43,352 nt of DNA from Thermofilum sp. (GTDB lineage Archaea > Thermoproteota > Thermoprotei > Thermofilales > Thermofilaceae), in contig JAGDWA010000005.1 in the NCBI GenBank assembly GCA_023269735.1, forward strand, positions 1-43,352, read 5' to 3'. The notes beneath the pieces were generated by a model, which was not told the origin of the DNA, did no database searches, and saw only the letters and a list, made by a program, of their open reading frames with translations. Shown one piece after another: positions 29,067 to 38,252 of the stretch (its first letter is position 1; each line of letters opens with the position of its first letter). The position numbers were made by a program, and so were the translations under genes.

Positions 29067-30992
29067 GTGGAAGGGGGCACCGAGAGGCGCACTGGCCTGA
29101 CCAAGAGGATCCTGTTCCTCCTGGTGCTCCTGATACCCCTGCTCGTCGCCGCGAACGTCTACGTTGCGCTCGCCGGTGGAGCCTTCGGAGTGCTCAGCAC
29201 CCAGACGCTGGTCCTGCTCTTCGTCTACGTCAGCAGGTACCTCGGCACGGACCTCACAAGGCAGGAGGTCTTCGTCCTGTACTACGCGCTGGCCTTCTCC
29301 TGGATCTTCTTCAGCGCCTACCCCATCCTGTACAGGGCGTACCTGAGGGTGGGTGAGGTCACGAACTCCTTCATGATCGGCGGGGAGCCCGTGGCGAAGC
29401 TGCTGCCAACCTGGTTCGCGCCCCCCGCGAACTCCCCCGTCTACAGGCTGAGGACGCTCTTCCACCCCGACATGGCGCTGCCCTTGCTGGTGCCGCTCGC
29501 CTTCTCCGTCCTCTGGCTCGTCGCCGAGTTGGCGATGCTGATGATGGCGTCCTTCCTCTTCGTGGAGGTGGAGGCCCTTCCCTTCCCCTTCGCACAGGTC
29601 GACTCCGCCTTCATCACGATGATCTCCGAGAGACCGGCCGAGTACCTGAGGGGCTTCCTGCCGATGCTGGGCCTCACCTTCATTTTCGCCTTCCTCATAT
29701 ACCTGCCGAGCGTCGGCATCATCGTTGGGCTACCGGTGCCACCCATCGGCTTCTACGACTTCACGCCGCAGATAACGGACTGGCTGCCCGGCGGCGTCCT
29801 CGGCGTGGAGTTCGTCCCGTGGAGGATCTTCCAGGGCATCATGATGCCCCTGGACGTGACGGCGGCTGCGCTCGTGACCTCAATCGTCGTCTGGACTCTC
29901 CTCAACTCCCTGTTCGTCACCAACCCCTTCCTGAGGTCCCTCTTCCCCGACTGGGCCCAGGAGTACAGGAGGGGCATGTCCTACGGGATGATCGTCGAGA
30001 GGTCCACGCTGAGGATCTGGGCCCCGATCCAGATGGGGTCCCAGCTCGCCCTCTCACTCATGCTGGTGGCCCGCTACCGCAGGGAGATCGCGCGCGCCCT
30101 CTCGGCGCTGGCTAGGGCCAGCAGCGCGCAGGCGCGCGAGTACCCGCCCCTCAAGGTTCTGCTGGGCATGTTCTTCGCTGCCACGCTCGCGGCGAGCGTG
30201 CTCTACTGGCTGCTGATGCCCGGCATCCCCCTCTACCTGATTATGCTGATGGTAGTGGGGCTCGGCCTCCTCATCCCCATAACGAACGCCTACATGACCG
30301 GGAAGGCCGGCCCCTCGCTCGGCATGCCGCCCTACGCGTGGCACTCCGTAGTCTACTCGCTGATCGGCCACATACCGCCGTCCACGCAGGTGACCGCCAT
30401 ACTCTTCGGCCCACCGATGGTGGGCGGCATGACGGGCGGCGGAGCGCAGGCGGTCAAGGTTGCGAGCCTCATCGGCGCTAGGCCCATGGATCTGATCAAG
30501 GTGATAGTAATCTCCTACGTGCTGGGCACAGTTGTCAACATCTTCGTGGTGGACTTGCTGTGGAGGCTGGCGCCGATACCCAGCATGGCCTACCCCAGCA
30601 CCCCCGGCATGAGGGACGCATCGGCGTACGACTGCGTCGTGGCATCCGGCGTGCTCCCGCTGAAGCCCAACGTGATACTGCCGGCGACTGGTATCTTCCT
30701 GCTCATCTATACGGCGATGGAGTCCCTGAACATGGCGTTCCACTGGCCCCTATCGGTGGCAGGAGTCGCGATGGGGCTGACCAACACCCCGGCCACGACG
30801 ATCATGTGGTTCATCTCGTCCGTGCTCGCCAGCATCGCCATACCCAAGCTGGTGGGCAAGGAGAGGGCCGCCCAGTGGAGCAGCCTCAAGGGAGTCTTCG
30901 TGGCAGCGGCCTTCCTCGGCGACGGGCTGGCCAGCACGATCTTCGCGCTAATGGGTTTATTAGGTAGGGCGAGCTGGACGTGGCCGTGGTGA
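29067..30992 (+). CDS. OPT-superfamily-like polytopic transporter
   Basis: This 641-aa protein is highly hydrophobic, with about 13-15 predicted spans and short loops. Repeated half-structure and segments such as SLGMPPYAWHSVVYSL, GGGAQAVKVASLIGARP followed by YVLGTVVNIFVVDLLW recall oligopeptide-transporter (OPT) superfamily proteins, in which a helix pair carries an xDLKxG/ARP-like turn. It also resembles the OPT-like proteins of unknown substrate (DUF6784/DUF6785 type); I cannot separate these by eye. A peptide or metal-chelate substrate is the general expectation. It is leaderless and its stop overlaps the next start in a GTGA pair, so it is co-translated with the M28-FtsX fusion protein. 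Confidence 0.6.
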   Translation: MEGGTERRTGLTKRILFLLVLLIPLLVAANVYVALAGGAFGVLSTQTLVLLFVYVSRYLGTDLTRQEVFVLYYALAFSWIFFSAYPILYRAYLRVGEVTNSFMIGGEPVAKLLPTWFAPPANSPVYRLRTLFHPDMALPLLVPLAFSVLWLVAELAMLMMASFLFVEVEALPFPFAQVDSAFITMISERPAEYLRGFLPMLGLTFIFAFLIYLPSVGIIVGLPVPPIGFYDFTPQITDWLPGGVLGVEFVPWRIFQGIMMPLDVTAAALVTSIVVWTLLNSLFVTNPFLRSLFPDWAQEYRRGMSYGMIVERSTLRIWAPIQMGSQLALSLMLVARYRREIARALSALARASSAQAREYPPLKVLLGMFFAATLAASVLYWLLMPGIPLYLIMLMVVGLGLLIPITNAYMTGKAGPSLGMPPYAWHSVVYSLIGHIPPSTQVTAILFGPPMVGGMTGGGAQAVKVASLIGARPMDLIKVIVISYVLGTVVNIFVVDLLWRLAPIPSMAYPSTPGMRDASAYDCVVASGVLPLKPNVILPATGIFLLIYTAMESLNMAFHWPLSVAGVAMGLTNTPATTIMWFISSVLASIAIPKLVGKERAAQWSSLKGVFVAAAFLGDGLASTIFALMGLLGRASWTWPW

Positions 30993-33900
30993 AGAGCATG
31001 AGGGCGCGCCTGATCGCTCTGCTCGCGCTCCTGCTCGCCATACCCCTGCCGCTCAGCCTGGCCCAGCGCCAGAGCGCAGCGGAGGACGCGGCGCTGAGGG
31101 CGATGCGGGGCTTCAACTACACCCGCGTCCTCGAGCTGGCCGAGCGCATCGCCTCCCTGGGCCCCCGGGCCCCAGGCTACCCCGGCTTCGAGAGGGCCTT
31201 CGAGCTGATCGTGGGGGAGGCGCGCAGGCTCAACCTGACGTACGTCGTCCAGAACTTCACGATGCTCGCGCCCGTTGAGACGGAGAGCTACGTTGAGGTG
31301 CTGGAGCCCGTGCACCTGAGGCTCAGGGCGTACAGCCTCTGGCCCAACGGGGGCCTCTTCGCCGGGTCCGGCGTCGTGGAGGGGCCGCTCGTCTACGCCG
31401 GCAGGGGCTCGCTGGAGGAGCTCGACGGGAGGCCCGTGAACGGGAGCATCGTCGCGCTGGAGTACGACGGCAGCGGGGACAGCTGGCTCAACGCGCTCCG
31501 CTTCGGCGCTAAGGCGGTCGTCTACCTGGGCGGCGGGAGGCCGCAGAGGGAGGCGCTCAGCAAGTTCGACCCGCTCGTCCCCGTCCCCTTCATGAGGCTC
31601 TACCTGCCGCCGGCGGAGGCGGGGGCCCTGAGGGGGCTGCTGAGGGGGCCCGTGAGGGTGAGGGTGGGCACGGACATGGAGCTGAGGGAGGTGGTCGGCC
31701 GCAACGTCCTCGTCGAGGTTCCGGGGGTGGAGAAGCCGGACGAGGTGATAATGCTCGTCGCCCACTTCGACTCCTGGTGCGTCGCCCCGGGCCTGGCGAA
31801 CTCGACCGAGGAGGCCCTCTCCACCGCCGCGCTCCTCGAGCTGATGAGGTACTTCGCCGCCAACAGGCCGGCCAGGACCCTCTGGCTCCTCTTCACCTCG
31901 GGCCACTGGAACGGGCTGGTGGGGCCGAGGTACTTCGTCGAGAACTTCATCCTGAGGCGCCCCGACATCGTGAGGGGCGAGAGGACGGTCTGGTGCGTGG
32001 TGGGCCTCGACATCAGCGCGGACCTGCCGGTGGCCTCCCTCACCTACGTGGGCCACTTCTACGTGGCGGCCAGGACCTTCATCACGACGAAGCTGTACTG
32101 GTTCCAGGGCCTCGCCAACACTCTCGTCCCAGTGATCGAACAGTTCCTCAACGAGTCGGGGCTGCCCCAGCACGAGGGGCTCCGAAGCGTGATAAGGAGG
32201 CTCGACGTGCTAAGGCCGATCGACCTCACCCACGGCCCTGACTGGATGTGGTCCAGCACGATGAGCAAGCCCTACGTCCTCGACACGGAGCCGTTCGTCG
32301 TTGCGGGGATGGCTGCGTTCACCCTCAGGACGAGCTACAGCTACAGGCCCTACGAGGGCGAGCCCGCCAGCGACCTGGCGTACGTGAGGGAGAACTTCAG
32401 GGACAGGGTCGTGCCGCAGCTGGCGGCTGCAGCGGCGCTGGCGGCGGCGCTACTGAACGTGCCCGAGATCGGGGTGATGAAGAGCCTGATCCTCCCCACG
32501 CGGCTCCACCCGCTGCTGTACTGGGGCTTCCTCCAGCTGAGCGTCCAGGTCCTCCAGTACAACATCACGAGGGGCTGGTACGACACCGTCCCCCACGCGA
32601 TCGTGAGGGTCGGCAGGTGGAGCAGCTACCCGTTCGCCTGGATCTTCGAGAGGGCGGACAGCAACGGGACGGCCCTCATCTACGGCGTCACCCCCCAGGG
32701 CCTGAACTCGTGGTACGTCGAGGCGTGGAAGCCCCTCAACGGGACCTGGGTCGTGGCCCCGGCCTGGGGGATGCGCAGCGGGGGGCCGCAGTGGATCAGC
32801 CTGCTCGTGCCGAGGGGCTACGTCAGCGTCTACGTGATGCCGATGCGGTACAGGATCCTCGTTGACATGTACAACCCGAGGCTGATGAGGCGCACGCTTG
32901 AGGACCCCAGGTACGGTTCGATGGACGTCTGGGCTGGAGGAGGGGCCTGGCCCACGCCCTTCGAGACATCGACCGGCATCGTCCCACTCTACCAGTTCGT
33001 CTCCGCGTTCGATAGGACCGGCGTCTACATGCAGTTCCTCTCCCGCGTCGAGAACCTGACTGTAACGCTCAGCGCGGGCATGAGGTGGCCGGTTGGCATC
33101 GCGATCGGTAAGGAGAGGGTCTACTGGGCTCTCGACTACGCCGTGGGCACCTACACGGTGGCTGAGCAGAGGTACTCGCTGCTCAGCGCGAGGGAGGTGA
33201 GGAGGCTGAGCGCCGACCTGATGCTGGACTACGCTCGCGATTACTTGAGCGAGGCGGAGAGGGCCCTCGAGAACCTGAAGTGGAGCTCCGCGTACGGGAG
33301 CGCGCTGGCGGCGTGGAGCTTCGCTTCGAGGGCCTACACCGACGAGGTGATGCCGCTGTTCGAGGAGTGCATCAGGTCCGCCACGCTCTTCGTCCCCTTC
33401 GTGGTGGTCAGCGGGTACTTCCTGGAGAGGCTCCTGACGAGGGGCGAGGGCTTCAGGATGATCCTCAACGTCTTCGCGTTCGAGATGGCGCTCTTCCTAC
33501 TATTCGCTTTCACCCACCCGGCATTCTGGGTCGTGCCCAGCACCACGCTGGCGGCCCTGGCGATAGGCATGATGATACTCATGGCGATCGTCCTGTGGAT
33601 CTTCTACAGGGAGGCCCGCGACATAGTGTCCGAGGTGGCGGCCAAGACCCTGGGCTACCACGAGGTGGTCACCGAGAGGACGGCGGCCACCCTCATGGCA
33701 ATTTCGCTATCGACGGAGCACATGAGGAAGCGCCCGCTGAGGTCGATCCTCACGCTGGTCCCCATCGCCGTCTTCGCGATGGCCGCCGTCTCGCTGGCCT
33801 CGGTATCACCGTACACCATCGTGCTGGAGAAGCAGGTAGAGGGGGCCACGCCGCTATTCTACGGCTTCACCCTGAAGAGGGGCTTCGCAACGCTGGGCGA

Positions 33901-35458
33901 CTTGCTCGATTACCCGACGGTCGACATGGTGAAGGCGATCGTCGGCAACAAGGGGTACGTGTGCCCGCGCATCGTCTACTACTCGCCGTCCGTCATCAAC
34001 CTAGGGCCCTACGGGCTGCTGATCTCTCACAACTACAGCATCCCGGTACCGGCGGTCGTCGGCCTCACGCCGGAGATGGCCGCTTACTTGATGGGGAGGG
34101 CGATGGTCAAGGGCCTGCCCAAGCCGTTCCTCAGCGAGGATCAACCGGCGATACTCCTGCCCTCCACGCTGGCCCAGCTGCTGGGCGTGGACGTGGGCGA
34201 CGAGGTGGAGCTCTACGGCATGAAGCTCACAGTGACGGGGATCTACTCGGACACCGCGATGGACGCCCTGCGCGACCCCGACGGCCTGAGAATATCCCCG
34301 ATGGACTCGGTGTACTACGCGCAGCTGCACGGCTTCGCCGTCCCGATGGGCACGGGCGTCGTCCCCCAGCCCTACGAGTGGGGTCGAATAGCGATAGTGC
34401 CCAGCGGAGTAGCCAAGATGCTGGGCGGCAAGGTCTACGTGATCGACGTGATCCTGAAGCCCAACGTGACTGAGAGCGAGTACGAGGAGATAGCGAGAAG
34501 GCTCGCCTACTCGGTCGACGCGTCTTGCTACGGGGGCAAGAGGGACGGCAGCGTCGTGGCCTACTCCAGGTTCCCGACGTACACGGCGATGGGCTGGGAG
34601 ATGATGGTAGCGCCCTTCGCCATAACCTCTCTCAGCATCGTCGTGTCGCTCCTGGGCAGCGTGAGGGAGAGGACGAGGGACATCTACGTCTACAGCAGCG
34701 TGGGGCTCTCGCCGGCGGGCGCGATGCTCATGTTCCTCACGGAGTTCGCCGTCTACGGGTTCCTGGGCGCGACCATCGGCTACTTCGCGGGCTGGGCGAT
34801 GAGCAAGGTGATGAGGGCTTTCGGCGTCCTGCCGGCGACGTTCGTCTTTAACTACGCCTCCATCGCCATCAGCAGCGTCCTGGTCCTAGTGCTGACTTCG
34901 ACGCTGGTAGCAGCCTCCTACCCAGCGTACCTCGCCTCCAAGATCATCACGCCGTCGCTGGAGAGGAAGTGGAAGATACCGAGGGCGCCCAGGGGCACCA
35001 TGTGGGACATACCGCTCCCCTTCAGGGTGCCGACGGAGAGGGAGGCGCAGGCCGTCCTGCTGTACCTGCAGGAGTACTACATGGGGGCCGGCTACGAGAA
35101 GAAGGTGTTCAAGGTCTCTAGCGACCCCAGGGTGGACGTGGGGGAGAAGCGGCTGACGCTGAACGTCATGCTCTACCCGTTCGACGCAGGGACCGAGCAG
35201 GAGGTCACGATCTACTTCGTGAGGGAGAGGGCCGGCGGCTGGAGGGCAGCTGCGAGCCTCAGGCTGCTGAAGGGCCTGGGCTCTGTGTGGACGGGGCCCT
35301 CGCAGTACGGCTTCATAGACGACCTGAGGAAGCAGATGCTGCTGTGGGGCACGCTGCCCTCAGCCGAGAGGGCGAAGTACATAAGGAGGGTCTACGAGCT
35401 CCTGAGCGAAGTGATGAAACCCGAGCAGGAGAGCGGTGAACGCGAGCCTAAAGGCTGA
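30989..35458 (+). CDS. Fusion of degenerate M28 peptidase-like domain with FtsX/MacB-type permease
   Basis: This 1489-aa protein begins with a signal peptide (VKSMRARLIALLALLLAIP). Residues about 30-480 form an M28-like domain with the first metal His/Asp in LVAHFDSW near 257, but the next positions look changed: NSTEE instead of an NDNAS-type segment, and TSGHWNGL instead of the catalytic Glu-Glu segment. A beta-rich region with several sequons follows. Spans occur from about 790; RPLRSILTLVPIAVF (about 915) is an FtsX-type first helix, then a MacB-like extracellular domain, then SVRERTRDIYVYSSVGLSPAG (about 1225) with three more spans, and a 150-residue soluble tail. The GTG at 30989 overlaps the transporter stop. 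No ABC ATPase gene is adjacent. Confidence 0.7.
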   Translation: MKSMRARLIALLALLLAIPLPLSLAQRQSAAEDAALRAMRGFNYTRVLELAERIASLGPRAPGYPGFERAFELIVGEARRLNLTYVVQNFTMLAPVETESYVEVLEPVHLRLRAYSLWPNGGLFAGSGVVEGPLVYAGRGSLEELDGRPVNGSIVALEYDGSGDSWLNALRFGAKAVVYLGGGRPQREALSKFDPLVPVPFMRLYLPPAEAGALRGLLRGPVRVRVGTDMELREVVGRNVLVEVPGVEKPDEVIMLVAHFDSWCVAPGLANSTEEALSTAALLELMRYFAANRPARTLWLLFTSGHWNGLVGPRYFVENFILRRPDIVRGERTVWCVVGLDISADLPVASLTYVGHFYVAARTFITTKLYWFQGLANTLVPVIEQFLNESGLPQHEGLRSVIRRLDVLRPIDLTHGPDWMWSSTMSKPYVLDTEPFVVAGMAAFTLRTSYSYRPYEGEPASDLAYVRENFRDRVVPQLAAAAALAAALLNVPEIGVMKSLILPTRLHPLLYWGFLQLSVQVLQYNITRGWYDTVPHAIVRVGRWSSYPFAWIFERADSNGTALIYGVTPQGLNSWYVEAWKPLNGTWVVAPAWGMRSGGPQWISLLVPRGYVSVYVMPMRYRILVDMYNPRLMRRTLEDPRYGSMDVWAGGGAWPTPFETSTGIVPLYQFVSAFDRTGVYMQFLSRVENLTVTLSAGMRWPVGIAIGKERVYWALDYAVGTYTVAEQRYSLLSAREVRRLSADLMLDYARDYLSEAERALENLKWSSAYGSALAAWSFASRAYTDEVMPLFEECIRSATLFVPFVVVSGYFLERLLTRGEGFRMILNVFAFEMALFLLFAFTHPAFWVVPSTTLAALAIGMMILMAIVLWIFYREARDIVSEVAAKTLGYHEVVTERTAATLMAISLSTEHMRKRPLRSILTLVPIAVFAMAAVSLASVSPYTIVLEKQVEGATPLFYGFTLKRGFATLGDLLDYPTVDMVKAIVGNKGYVCPRIVYYSPSVINLGPYGLLISHNYSIPVPAVVGLTPEMAAYLMGRAMVKGLPKPFLSEDQPAILLPSTLAQLLGVDVGDEVELYGMKLTVTGIYSDTAMDALRDPDGLRISPMDSVYYAQLHGFAVPMGTGVVPQPYEWGRIAIVPSGVAKMLGGKVYVIDVILKPNVTESEYEEIARRLAYSVDASCYGGKRDGSVVAYSRFPTYTAMGWEMMVAPFAITSLSIVVSLLGSVRERTRDIYVYSSVGLSPAGAMLMFLTEFAVYGFLGATIGYFAGWAMSKVMRAFGVLPATFVFNYASIAISSVLVLVLTSTLVAASYPAYLASKIITPSLERKWKIPRAPRGTMWDIPLPFRVPTEREAQAVLLYLQEYYMGAGYEKKVFKVSSDPRVDVGEKRLTLNVMLYPFDAGTEQEVTIYFVRERAGGWRAAASLRLLKGLGSVWTGPSQYGFIDDLRKQMLLWGTLPSAERAKYIRRVYELLSEVMKPEQESGEREPKG

Positions 35459-35469
35459 AGCTCTTACCG

Positions 35470-36876
35470 TCAACTCCCCCTCTTCTTTCTGACAACCGCG
35501 CTAGAGGGATCCAGCGAGGTCCACTCCACAGTGTACCCGAGGCTCTCCAGAACCTTCACCGCCCGATCCTCCTCCACCCCCCTGGCCTTCAGCACCTTCA
35601 GCGCCTCGCTGAGGGGCTTACCGTCGAGGTCGGGCAGGTCCAGCGGCGCCACGCCCCCCTCCTCGGCCCCCTCCCTCGCGGGCCCCCCCAGCAGGCGCTT
35701 GAGGACCGGGTAGACGTCCGCCCCCCTCAGCCTCCGCTTGAACACCACCACCTCGTGCGGCAGCTCCTTCAGCGAGGAGCAGGCGAGCTCCTCGTTCACC
35801 GCCACGACGACCTTGACGCCCCTGAGCTCGCGTAGCTTCTCCAGCTTCCTCTCCAGGTACTCCCTGGTCCAGAAGCCCAGTATCTCGATGTATACGGTCT
35901 GGTCCCCCCGCGACACGGAGAAGTCGGGGATCAGGATGCGGCCGCCTGCCACCAGCGGCTCGGGCTCGCGCCTGACCGTCCACCCGGGCGCGAGAGCCGA
36001 GAGGCTCCTGTAGAACTCCCGCTCCAGCTCGCTGTCGAAGAGCGGCTCGAGCTCCGGCTCGAGCTTCGGGAAGAGGCCGGACGAGCTGTCGTCGAGCTCG
36101 AACGTGAGCGTGCGCCCCCTCCCCTCGATGTCGGCCCTGATGCTCCACTCCTCGGCCTGCATCACGTAGGGCACGAGCTTGGCCAGGCGGGTCCCGTACC
36201 TCCTCGTCTGCCTGAGCAGCGACGCCGGCCCGTCGATGGCGATGCTAACCCCCCTCCCAGCCCGCTCCGCCATGTAGAGGAGCCCCAGGAGCTTCACGGC
36301 GCGCAGCAGGCGCTTGACCGTGGCCCCGTCGGCCACCACCGCCGCCTCGAGCCGGAGGGCCCTGAAGAGGAGGGTCTGCACGGCCGACAGGTTGTACCTT
36401 CTCACCAGCTCCTCGGCCGAGATGCTGGGGGGCTCCGCGAGCACCTCGTCCGCTTGCGAGGAGATGAGCTCCTCCAGCACTTGAGCGCTACACCCGAGCC
36501 TCGCTGCAACCCTCTCGAGGACGGCTTCCCTCTCCCCCTCCGTCACAGCTACGCCGTACATGCTCGCCGCTGCCTCGTACACCTCCAGCCGGGCCCTGAC
36601 GGGGTCCAGCGGGAGCCTCGGCCTCTCGAAGCGGGAGGCCCTCAGCGCCAGCGTGAGCATCGCCTTGACCACGCGCAGGTCCATCCCGGCCTCTAGGGCG
36701 AGCTCCATCAGGTCCTCCGCCTCGGCGAGCAGCGTGCCCCTGCTCTTACCGACGCCGCCCCGGATCCGCTCGAGAACCTCGCTGGCGATGGCCAGCGGGA
36801 TGCCCTCGGGCTTCAGCAGGAGGGGCTCCACCCTGCCGCCGCGAACCCTGGCCACCAGGAGGTTTGAGGGCAGCAC
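35470..36876 (-). CDS. bax1: Bax1 (DUF790), nuclease partner of archaeal XPB
   Basis: Bax1 binds the XPB helicase and incises DNA next to bubbles, giving archaea an XPB-Bax1 excision-repair module. The 468-aa protein matches DUF790: an N-terminal helical part (LPSNLLVARVRGGRVEPLLL), SAVQTLLFRALRLEA, a central region with VKLLGLLYMAER, then the RecB-like nuclease region IPDFSVSRGDQTVYIEILGFWT with Asp, Glu and a following Lys-rich helix. It lies 17 nt downstream of xpb and is clearly in its operon. GTG 36876 follows a G-rich SD-like sequence. Confidence 0.9.
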   Translation of the reverse strand: MLPSNLLVARVRGGRVEPLLLKPEGIPLAIASEVLERIRGGVGKSRGTLLAEAEDLMELALEAGMDLRVVKAMLTLALRASRFERPRLPLDPVRARLEVYEAAASMYGVAVTEGEREAVLERVAARLGCSAQVLEELISSQADEVLAEPPSISAEELVRRYNLSAVQTLLFRALRLEAAVVADGATVKRLLRAVKLLGLLYMAERAGRGVSIAIDGPASLLRQTRRYGTRLAKLVPYVMQAEEWSIRADIEGRGRTLTFELDDSSSGLFPKLEPELEPLFDSELEREFYRSLSALAPGWTVRREPEPLVAGGRILIPDFSVSRGDQTVYIEILGFWTREYLERKLEKLRELRGVKVVVAVNEELACSSLKELPHEVVVFKRRLRGADVYPVLKRLLGGPAREGAEEGGVAPLDLPDLDGKPLSEALKVLKARGVEEDRAVKVLESLGYTVEWTSLDPSSAVVRKKRGS

Positions 36877-36893
36877 GCCCCCTCCACCCGCGC

Positions 36894-38252
36894 TTAGGGC
36901 TCTGACGGACCTATCGCGCTCCTGCGCTTGCGCGAGATCGCGACCTCCTTCGTGCCCGCCGTCACCACCTCGTAGAGGATCGCTCGCTTGCCCCCCTTGG
37001 GCCTCAGGACGCGGCCGAGCCTCTGCAGGAACTCCCGCCTGCTGCCGGTGCCGCTGAGCACGATGGCCACGTTCGCCTCCGGCACGTCGACGCCCTCCTC
37101 GAGCACCTTGCTCGTCACCACCGCGCGCACCCTCCCCTCCTTGAACGCCGCCAGCACGGCCCTGCGCTCCACCTCGGGGGTCTTGTACGTGATCATCGGT
37201 ATCAGGAAGCGCGAGGAGATGGCCCTCACTACGTCGGTGTGCTCGACGAACACGAGGACCCTGTCGTTGCGGTGCCTCGCCAGCAGCTCGCCCAGGATCT
37301 CCAGCTTGGATTGCGCGTGGAGCGCGATCCTCCTGGCCCTGTACCAGGCCAGCAGGGCCTCGCGCGCCTCGGCGTCCCTGACGCTGAGCGCCACCAGCCT
37401 CTCGAAGGCCCTCGGGTCGCCGGGCCTGATACCCCTCTTCCTAAAGAACTCCCTGTAGACCCTCGTCAGCCTCCTGTACTCTTCCCTCTCCTCATCCCCC
37501 ATGCGCGCGTAGACTCGCACTATGTCGAACTCCGCCAGCCACCTTCCCGCCATCTCCCTCACGTACCGCCTGTACACGACGGGCCCCACCAGGTACGGCA
37601 GGTCGACGTGCAGCCCGTCCTCGCGCTCGGGCGTCGCGGTCAGCCCCATCCGCCAGGGGGCCGCTGAGAGCTCCGCAATCTGGCGGTAGCCGGGGCTCGG
37701 GAGGTGGTGGACCTCGTCGAAGACGATGAGCAGGAACTTGTCGCCCAGCTGCTCGACGTTGAGGTAGGCTGAGTCGTACGTCGCCACGGTCACGCAAGCC
37801 ACCTCCTTGTCCCCCCCGCCGTAGCGCCCCGGCCTCACCCCGAGCAGCTGCCTGATGCTCGCCTCCCACTGGCTCATGAGCTCCAGCGTGGGCACGACGA
37901 CGAGCGTGGGGCAGGCGAGCCTCGCGATGGCGGCCAGCGCCACCCTCGTCTTCCCGGCTCCCGTGGGGAGCACGATCACGCCCCTGCGGTCCCTCATCCA
38001 GGCTTCGAGGGCCTCGCGCTGGTAGTCCCTGAGCTCCAGCTCCCTGGGCTCGATGCTGCAGGGCAGGGGGTGGAGGACGTCGTCCTCGTAGGGCTCGCCC
38101 AGGTCCCTCAGGCGCTCAACGACCCACCGGTACTGGATCGCTAAGCTCCTGTAGCACCTGACGCGGGGGTCGTACCTGAAGAAGGGCGCGAGGGCCGGGG
38201 GCAGGTCCCCCTTAGCCACGATAGTCCCCGCGCTCCACTCCAGCCTCAGCAT
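36894..38252 (-). CDS. xpb: XPB-type DNA helicase
   Basis: This 452-aa superfamily 2 helicase has the normal archaeal XPB length. An N-terminal damage-recognition domain is followed by ELRDYQREALEAW, Walker A LPTGAGKT, DEVHH in motif II, LTATPERED where the RED motif of XPB is visible, and the C-terminal motor with VFVEHTDV, EGVDVPEANVAI and QRLGRVLRPKGGK (motif VI). It unwinds or distorts DNA around lesions together with Bax1, the next gene. ATG 38252 is leaderless, about 27 nt after a TATA-like box, and divergent from trxB-like. Confidence 0.95.
   Translation of the reverse strand: MLRLEWSAGTIVAKGDLPPALAPFFRYDPRVRCYRSLAIQYRWVVERLRDLGEPYEDDVLHPLPCSIEPRELELRDYQREALEAWMRDRRGVIVLPTGAGKTRVALAAIARLACPTLVVVPTLELMSQWEASIRQLLGVRPGRYGGGDKEVACVTVATYDSAYLNVEQLGDKFLLIVFDEVHHLPSPGYRQIAELSAAPWRMGLTATPEREDGLHVDLPYLVGPVVYRRYVREMAGRWLAEFDIVRVYARMGDEEREEYRRLTRVYREFFRKRGIRPGDPRAFERLVALSVRDAEAREALLAWYRARRIALHAQSKLEILGELLARHRNDRVLVFVEHTDVVRAISSRFLIPMITYKTPEVERRAVLAAFKEGRVRAVVTSKVLEEGVDVPEANVAIVLSGTGSRREFLQRLGRVLRPKGGKRAILYEVVTAGTKEVAISRKRRSAIGPSEP

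Follow-up and report, generated by a model that had tools for sequence, protein, structure and literature searches.

What does a protein that joins an M28 peptidase-like domain to an FtsX-type permease do when its gene overlaps that of an OPT-like transporter, and what supplies it with energy? Such a pair occurs on the forward strand of the 43,352-nucleotide stretch of Thermofilum DNA analyzed here (the window). The first-pass annotation described a GTGA-coupled gene pair, and both reading frames are open with the overlap present in the sequence.

29067..30992, + strand: OPT-A, OPT-superfamily polytopic transporter of 641 amino acids (open reading frame)
30989..35458, + strand: pseudo-M28/FtsX fusion protein of 1489 amino acids (open reading frame, Pfam, AlphaFold2, and fold matches)
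30989..30992, + strand: GTGA stop/start overlap between the OPT-A and fusion genes (sequence)

The fusion gene starts with a GTG overlapping the TGA of the OPT-A gene, with in-frame GTG codons at 30980 and 30986 as alternative possible starts. Most co-directional relatives of the pair lie no more than about 20 bp apart. On the opposite strand (35470-38252, -) a gene for a DUF790 protein (PF05626, also found in the nuclease Bax1) adjoins that of an XPB-type helicase with a DRD domain, and the two look like the known archaeal XPB-Bax1 pair.

Architecture of the fusion protein

The M28-like domain and FtsX/MacB permease first read from the translation, behind a signal peptide, agree with the Pfam matches, the AlphaFold2 models, and the fold matches. 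Pfam identifies FtsX (E 1.7e-11; the PF02687 match exceeds the cut-off), Peptidase_M28 (PF04389, E 8e-11), and weakly MacB_PCD (E 2.4e-4). The AlphaFold2 models, run separately for each half of the protein with 50-sequence alignments, have pLDDT values of 91.5 for the N-terminal and 87.2 for the C-terminal half. From the N to the C terminus the protein is composed of a predicted signal peptide, the M28 fold, a β-rich region, a helical stalk, three helices, a complete FtsX/LolC/MacB module, and a cytosolic C-terminal domain.

30989..31063, + strand: predicted signal peptide, residues 1-25 (VKSMRARLIALLALLLAIPLPLSLA; translation judged by eye)
31070..32467, + strand: pseudo-M28 domain, residues about 28-493 (structural match and Foldseek)
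33452..33652, + strand: helices preceding the FtsX module, residues about 822-888 (AlphaFold2 secondary structure and hydrophobic sequence)
33677..34948, + strand: FtsX/MacB-type module, residues about 897-1320 (Pfam, conservation, AlphaFold2, and fold matches)
34994..35416, + strand: conserved C-terminal domain on the cytosolic side, residues about 1336-1476 (borderline match to a helix-grip, Bet v 1-like fold)

The best fold matches of the N-terminal half are Vibrio aminopeptidase, PaAP, GCPII, and the transferrin receptor. Model residues 9-474 superpose on the Vibrio enzyme with a Z score of 27.7 (271 aligned residues, rmsd 2.6), and Foldseek matches the domain to the Aneurinibacillus aminopeptidase 2ek8 with an E value of 2.3e-20. 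Following the stalk, a helix at about 799-818 and the helices at about 822-888 make up three transmembrane helices, predicted from AlphaFold2 secondary structure and hydrophobicity.

The FtsX module is ordered as a coupling helix, TM1, an extracellular domain, TM2, a second coupling helix with the motif ERxREI, TM3, and TM4. Its half of the protein matches HrtB, YtrF, MacB, and LolC with Z scores of 14-16, sharing the four-helix FtsX fold with the extracellular domain placed after TM1, and further matches include LolE, YbbP, and BceAB. On the predicted models the protein belongs to the FtsX fold family, and it is proposed to work like a type VII ABC (mechanotransmission) subunit. The coupling segments ENMRRRPLRT and ERxREI are strongly conserved in the 50 sequences; together with the C-terminal domain, which is rich in invariant columns, the coupling-helix segments hold many of the most conserved columns of the fusion. 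For the C-terminal domain the helix-grip match is only marginally significant (Z 8.3 over 122 residues, rmsd 3.2), and the argument does not lean on it; the modelled domain is possibly a ligand-binding or regulatory one.

The altered M28 active site

The active-site region was aligned to known M28 enzymes and to stand-alone M28 proteins of the sampled genomes, and its residues were followed through 78 relatives of the fusion.

31763..31771, + strand: HxD segment, H259-F-D261 (the Asp is kept by all 78 relatives, the His by 46)
31808..31813, + strand: E274-E275 at the site of the bridging-Asp segment (one of the two residues is acidic in 77 of 78)
31904..31912, + strand: H306-W307-N308 in place of the catalytic Glu-Glu (alignment; family consensus His-Trp-Gln)
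32009..32011, + strand: D341, equivalent of the fourth M28 ligand, an Asp (kept in 54 of 78)
32357..32359, + strand: G457 at the position of the last M28 His ligand, the register of GTPxDT against HTxxDT being set by hand (the segment contains a His in just 8 of 78)

A Glu is absent from both catalytic Glu-Glu positions in all 78 relatives, which bears out the earlier reading of a pseudo-peptidase and rules out a local accident in the window copy, the loss being family-wide. The second Glu, a metal ligand, is replaced by Trp or another residue in every fusion (78/78), and the first His is lost in 32; in contrast, the 13 stand-alone M28 proteins keep the first Glu in 10 cases and the second in all 13. 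The annotation had picked out the motifs NSTEE and TSGHWNG by eye as replaced segments. The letters are correct, but NSTEE retains acidic residues on or beside the bridging Asp position, and the clear losses are the Glu-Glu, replaced by His-Trp, and the last His, replaced by Gly. It had also named preservation of all five metal ligands and the base elsewhere in the domain as grounds for refutation; no fusion relative (0/78) has the five ligands together.

As judged by motif, the ectodomain lies outside the active M28 peptidases, having the fold without the Glu-Glu pair or the five ligands. By its sequence the site is changed rather than decayed, because several equivalent residues stay highly conserved: among 600 positions the Asp of HxD ranks second and E437 (in the 1492-amino acid numbering) 21st. 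A structure of Vibrio aminopeptidase with Glu-to-His at the general-base position (Glu-151; PDB code 2anp) is titled "functional," so loss of the general-base Glu alone is no proof of inactivity.

Separately, stand-alone M28-like proteins of about 600 amino acids (loci L211, L212, and L213) carry GHE in place of the usual EE segment.

Pairing with the transporter and a candidate ATPase

Pfam gives no match of its own for the window transporter (29067-30992). Its aligned homologue L159:1007-2959 matches the OPT family PF03169 with 39.1 bits, above the cut-off of 25.8. A second OPT-like gene (PF20581, DUF6785) often joins the pair loci; in close relatives the window's own orthologous group consists of the pair without it. 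Of 41 relatives, 33 carry a match to the fusion (E 1e-3, a count that takes in weak hits to only FtsX or only M28) and 18 carry the transporter; one scan of contigs gave a single named relative, the Thermofilales isolate RSNS8. Neighboring OPT and fusion genes form 53 pairs in 16 genomes, with the fusion first in 24, the OPT gene first in 20, 9 divergent, and none convergent. With 78 relatives and 53 pairs, a chance or one-off fusion is ruled out.

The protein distances of the OPT and fusion partners correlate with r = 0.87 overall and 0.79 within genomes, whereas 1000 shuffles of partners within genomes average 0.22 and never exceed 0.54. In 308 of 487 cases, against 119 expected, the top matches of the two proteins come from one and the same locus. 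The gene pair proposed for a search in other archaeal genomes is strongly conserved and shows pairwise coevolution, and the OPT and fusion proteins very likely act together. An M28 fusion lacks an adjacent OPT gene in family f40 and at one other locus. Of the 300 genomes in a phylum sample, 40 have an M28 fusion, and a single genome of about 2 Mb holds up to 14 matches to the FtsX half.

The same genomes also encode sister FtsX fusions with a GH2 domain or a carboxypeptidase-regulatory-like domain. The GH2 glycosidase-FtsX proteins, of about 1800 amino acids (L101:2904-8291 and relatives in L100, L103, L105, and L106), keep the motifs HNEPPW and TEFGAQS, and their ectodomain may therefore be active.

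None of the loci examined has an ABC ATPase gene adjoining the pair. The sole candidate ATPase flagged beside a pair, a 645-amino acid protein in L053, is HerA-like and not ABC. The partner ATPase missing in the first-pass annotation is absent only locally: a LolD/MacB-type clade of candidates, encoded elsewhere, co-occurs with the FtsX fusions almost one-to-one in the phylum. Relatives carry two related ATPases of this type, about 70% identical. One is an orphan gene beside ABCE1/RLI, an arrangement conserved in several families (for example L119:6096-6833 and L119:7279-9108), and the other usually adjoins a four-helix mini-FtsX of about 210 residues. The clade was delimited by a gap in identity to the orphan form, with values of at least 62% above it and at most 56% below it in the phylum sample, and the upper group was taken.

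Both the fusion and the ATPase clade are present in 49 of the 300 genomes, the fusion alone in 3 (G274, G300, and G142), the ATPase alone in 4 (G017, G108, G294, and G299), and neither in 244, which gives a phi of 0.92. The totals are 52 genomes with a fusion and 53 with the clade, and the ATPase is found in 4 of the 248 fusion-negative genomes. Only one of the 84 genomes having just the more distant LolD-type ATPases is fusion-positive. The two traits also vary together inside families f1 and f40; in f1, genera g1, g4, and g6 have both and g7 has neither. In two complete genomes (G119 and G213) a run of mini-FtsX, ATPase, and ATPase genes is about 4 kb from a cluster of OPT, OPT, and fusion genes, and in family f40 some 13 kb, with an OPT gene in the interval, separate the ATPase from another FtsX fusion.

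The window's genome has both ATPase types, the alpha form as a partial match. A LolD-type ATPase on contig C39 of G000 was considered as the alpha form and rejected, being 49% identical and closer to the ATPases beside ordinary FtsX permeases. At L186:5771-7830 and L187:5506-7570 a mini-FtsX and two different LolD-type ATPases stand in a row close to the OPT/fusion cluster, with a gene for a GH57 protein on either side.

From this genomic distribution the co-occurring ATPase is probably the motor of the FtsX fusions, encoded elsewhere, and the link is graded no higher because shared ancestry can inflate the co-occurrence numbers and Fisher's p counts related genomes as independent. The form that has its own mini-FtsX might serve that mini-FtsX alone. 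The clade is nevertheless a concrete partner candidate for FtsX proteins that seem orphaned when judged by neighboring genes alone.

Proposed mechanism and alternatives

The best explanation overall, which we regard as evenly poised, is a dead-M28 receptor-FtsX protein that serves a dedicated OPT transporter and is driven by an ATPase in trans. We infer a physical complex, contact with the ATPase, a peptide ligand, and an inward direction of transport. The fusion would be a type VII ABC subunit of the FtsX superfamily with the dead peptidase at its outer end as the receptor, partnered by the OPT transporter encoded beside it and often by the second OPT-like protein as well. ATP hydrolysis would be provided in trans by the common LolD/MacB-type ATPase; the FtsX module, thereby set in motion, would shift or open the ectodomain and hand the captured ligand to the OPT protein for import. 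That the ectodomain is a non-catalytic receptor is likely, and action of the ATPase on the fusion in trans, held a shade less firmly, is also on the probable side; peptides are the most likely ligand, at a confidence just short of even. An extension is tentative: one small common module, two LolD-type ATPases and perhaps the mini-FtsX, may drive a dozen interchangeable receptor-FtsX proteins in each cell, many with their own OPT protein, in an ABC/secondary-transport hybrid with sharing like that of group II ECF transporters.

Retained features of the M28 site leave some room for a remodelled hydrolase, with altered ligands and His as the general base, that trims peptides for the OPT protein. 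The window copy retains HxD, an acidic bridging residue, a His at the base position, and D341, the Glu-151-to-His Vibrio structure sets a precedent, and the sister GH2 fusion has kept its glycosidase motifs. However, the invariable replacement of the second Glu, the usual loss of the last His, and the frequent loss of the first make such an enzyme distinctly unlikely. The invariant columns and borderline helix-grip fold of the C-terminal domain could instead belong to a sensor that detects extracellular peptides or the state of the envelope and signals inward through this domain, as in BceAB, the OPT protein being a regulated transporter. One of the fold matches is BceAB, and a sensor kinase is the partner of BceAB-like systems (PMC12646458), whereas no kinase or regulator is recognized as a constant neighbor of the pairs among the partly annotated neighboring genes; a sensor is considered unlikely.

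The lack of an adjacent ABC ATPase gene in the loci examined would fit an ATP-independent protein, anchored statically by its FtsX module, with the correlation to the ATPase a product of lineage history. Against this stand the motor-contact segments, which are among the most conserved, and the phi of 0.92 with concordant presence and absence inside families, and we give a static anchor little credence. It is very unlikely that the fusion works on lipids or surface proteins in the manner of LolCDE or YbbAP with its OPT pairing due to co-regulation only: LolC/E, MacB, and YbbP are among the closest folds and in YbbAP-TesA a type VII ABC protein has a hydrolase partner (PMC12646458), but each fusion coevolves specifically with its own OPT paralogue and the pair is conserved in both gene orders.

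The receptor-FtsX proposal differs from each described system. Type VII ABC proteins (FtsX/MacB/LolCE/HrtB/YtrF) share the complete FtsX module, the coupling helices, and the MacB-type extracellular domain, whereas the fusion has in addition an N-terminal pseudo-M28 ectodomain, a stalk, three more helices, and a cytosolic domain, with an OPT partner and an ATPase gene that is not adjacent. Among described systems, YbbAP-TesA (PMC12646458) comes closest in joining a type VII ABC protein to a hydrolase fold outside the membrane; there YbbA is the ATPase and TesA a separate active esterase, whereas the peptidase fold here is fused and apparently dead, and a secondary transporter is the partner. 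The M28-fold proteins with an apical domain (2ek8, PaAP, GCPII, and the transferrin receptor) have the same fold, whereas the ectodomain is fused to FtsX and has His-Trp in place of the catalytic Glu-Glu; like the transferrin receptor, it is probably a non-catalytic receptor of the M28 type. In group II ECF transporters one energizing module is common to many separately encoded substrate components. The likeness is an analogy only, the membrane folds being unrelated and the sharing of a motor here a proposal.

The open-access literature searched yielded no paper on M28-FtsX fusions or DUF6785 and no description of the pseudo-M28/FtsX and OPT system. The system is larger than first described: genomes hold many paralogous pairs, a second OPT-like protein is frequent, and sister fusions and the mini-FtsX belong to it as well. 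The fusion pairs are a large membrane-protein investment of these genomes. The findings suggest an undescribed mode of feeding a secondary transporter in heat-loving archaea. If the proposal is true, a secondary transporter is helped by an ATP motor of the FtsX type, and many receptors depend on a single motor; the literature searched showed neither arrangement.

The transporters themselves resemble known families, an OPT-A homologue passing PF03169 and the third gene being PF20581; what sets them apart is the genetic link to an FtsX fusion. The Staphylothermus marinus genome paper notes an OPT peptide transporter, Smar_1400, and its passages on this transporter mention no such fusion (PMC2678158). 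The OPT gene at L187:379, which has a fusion two genes before it, appears to be Smar_1400.
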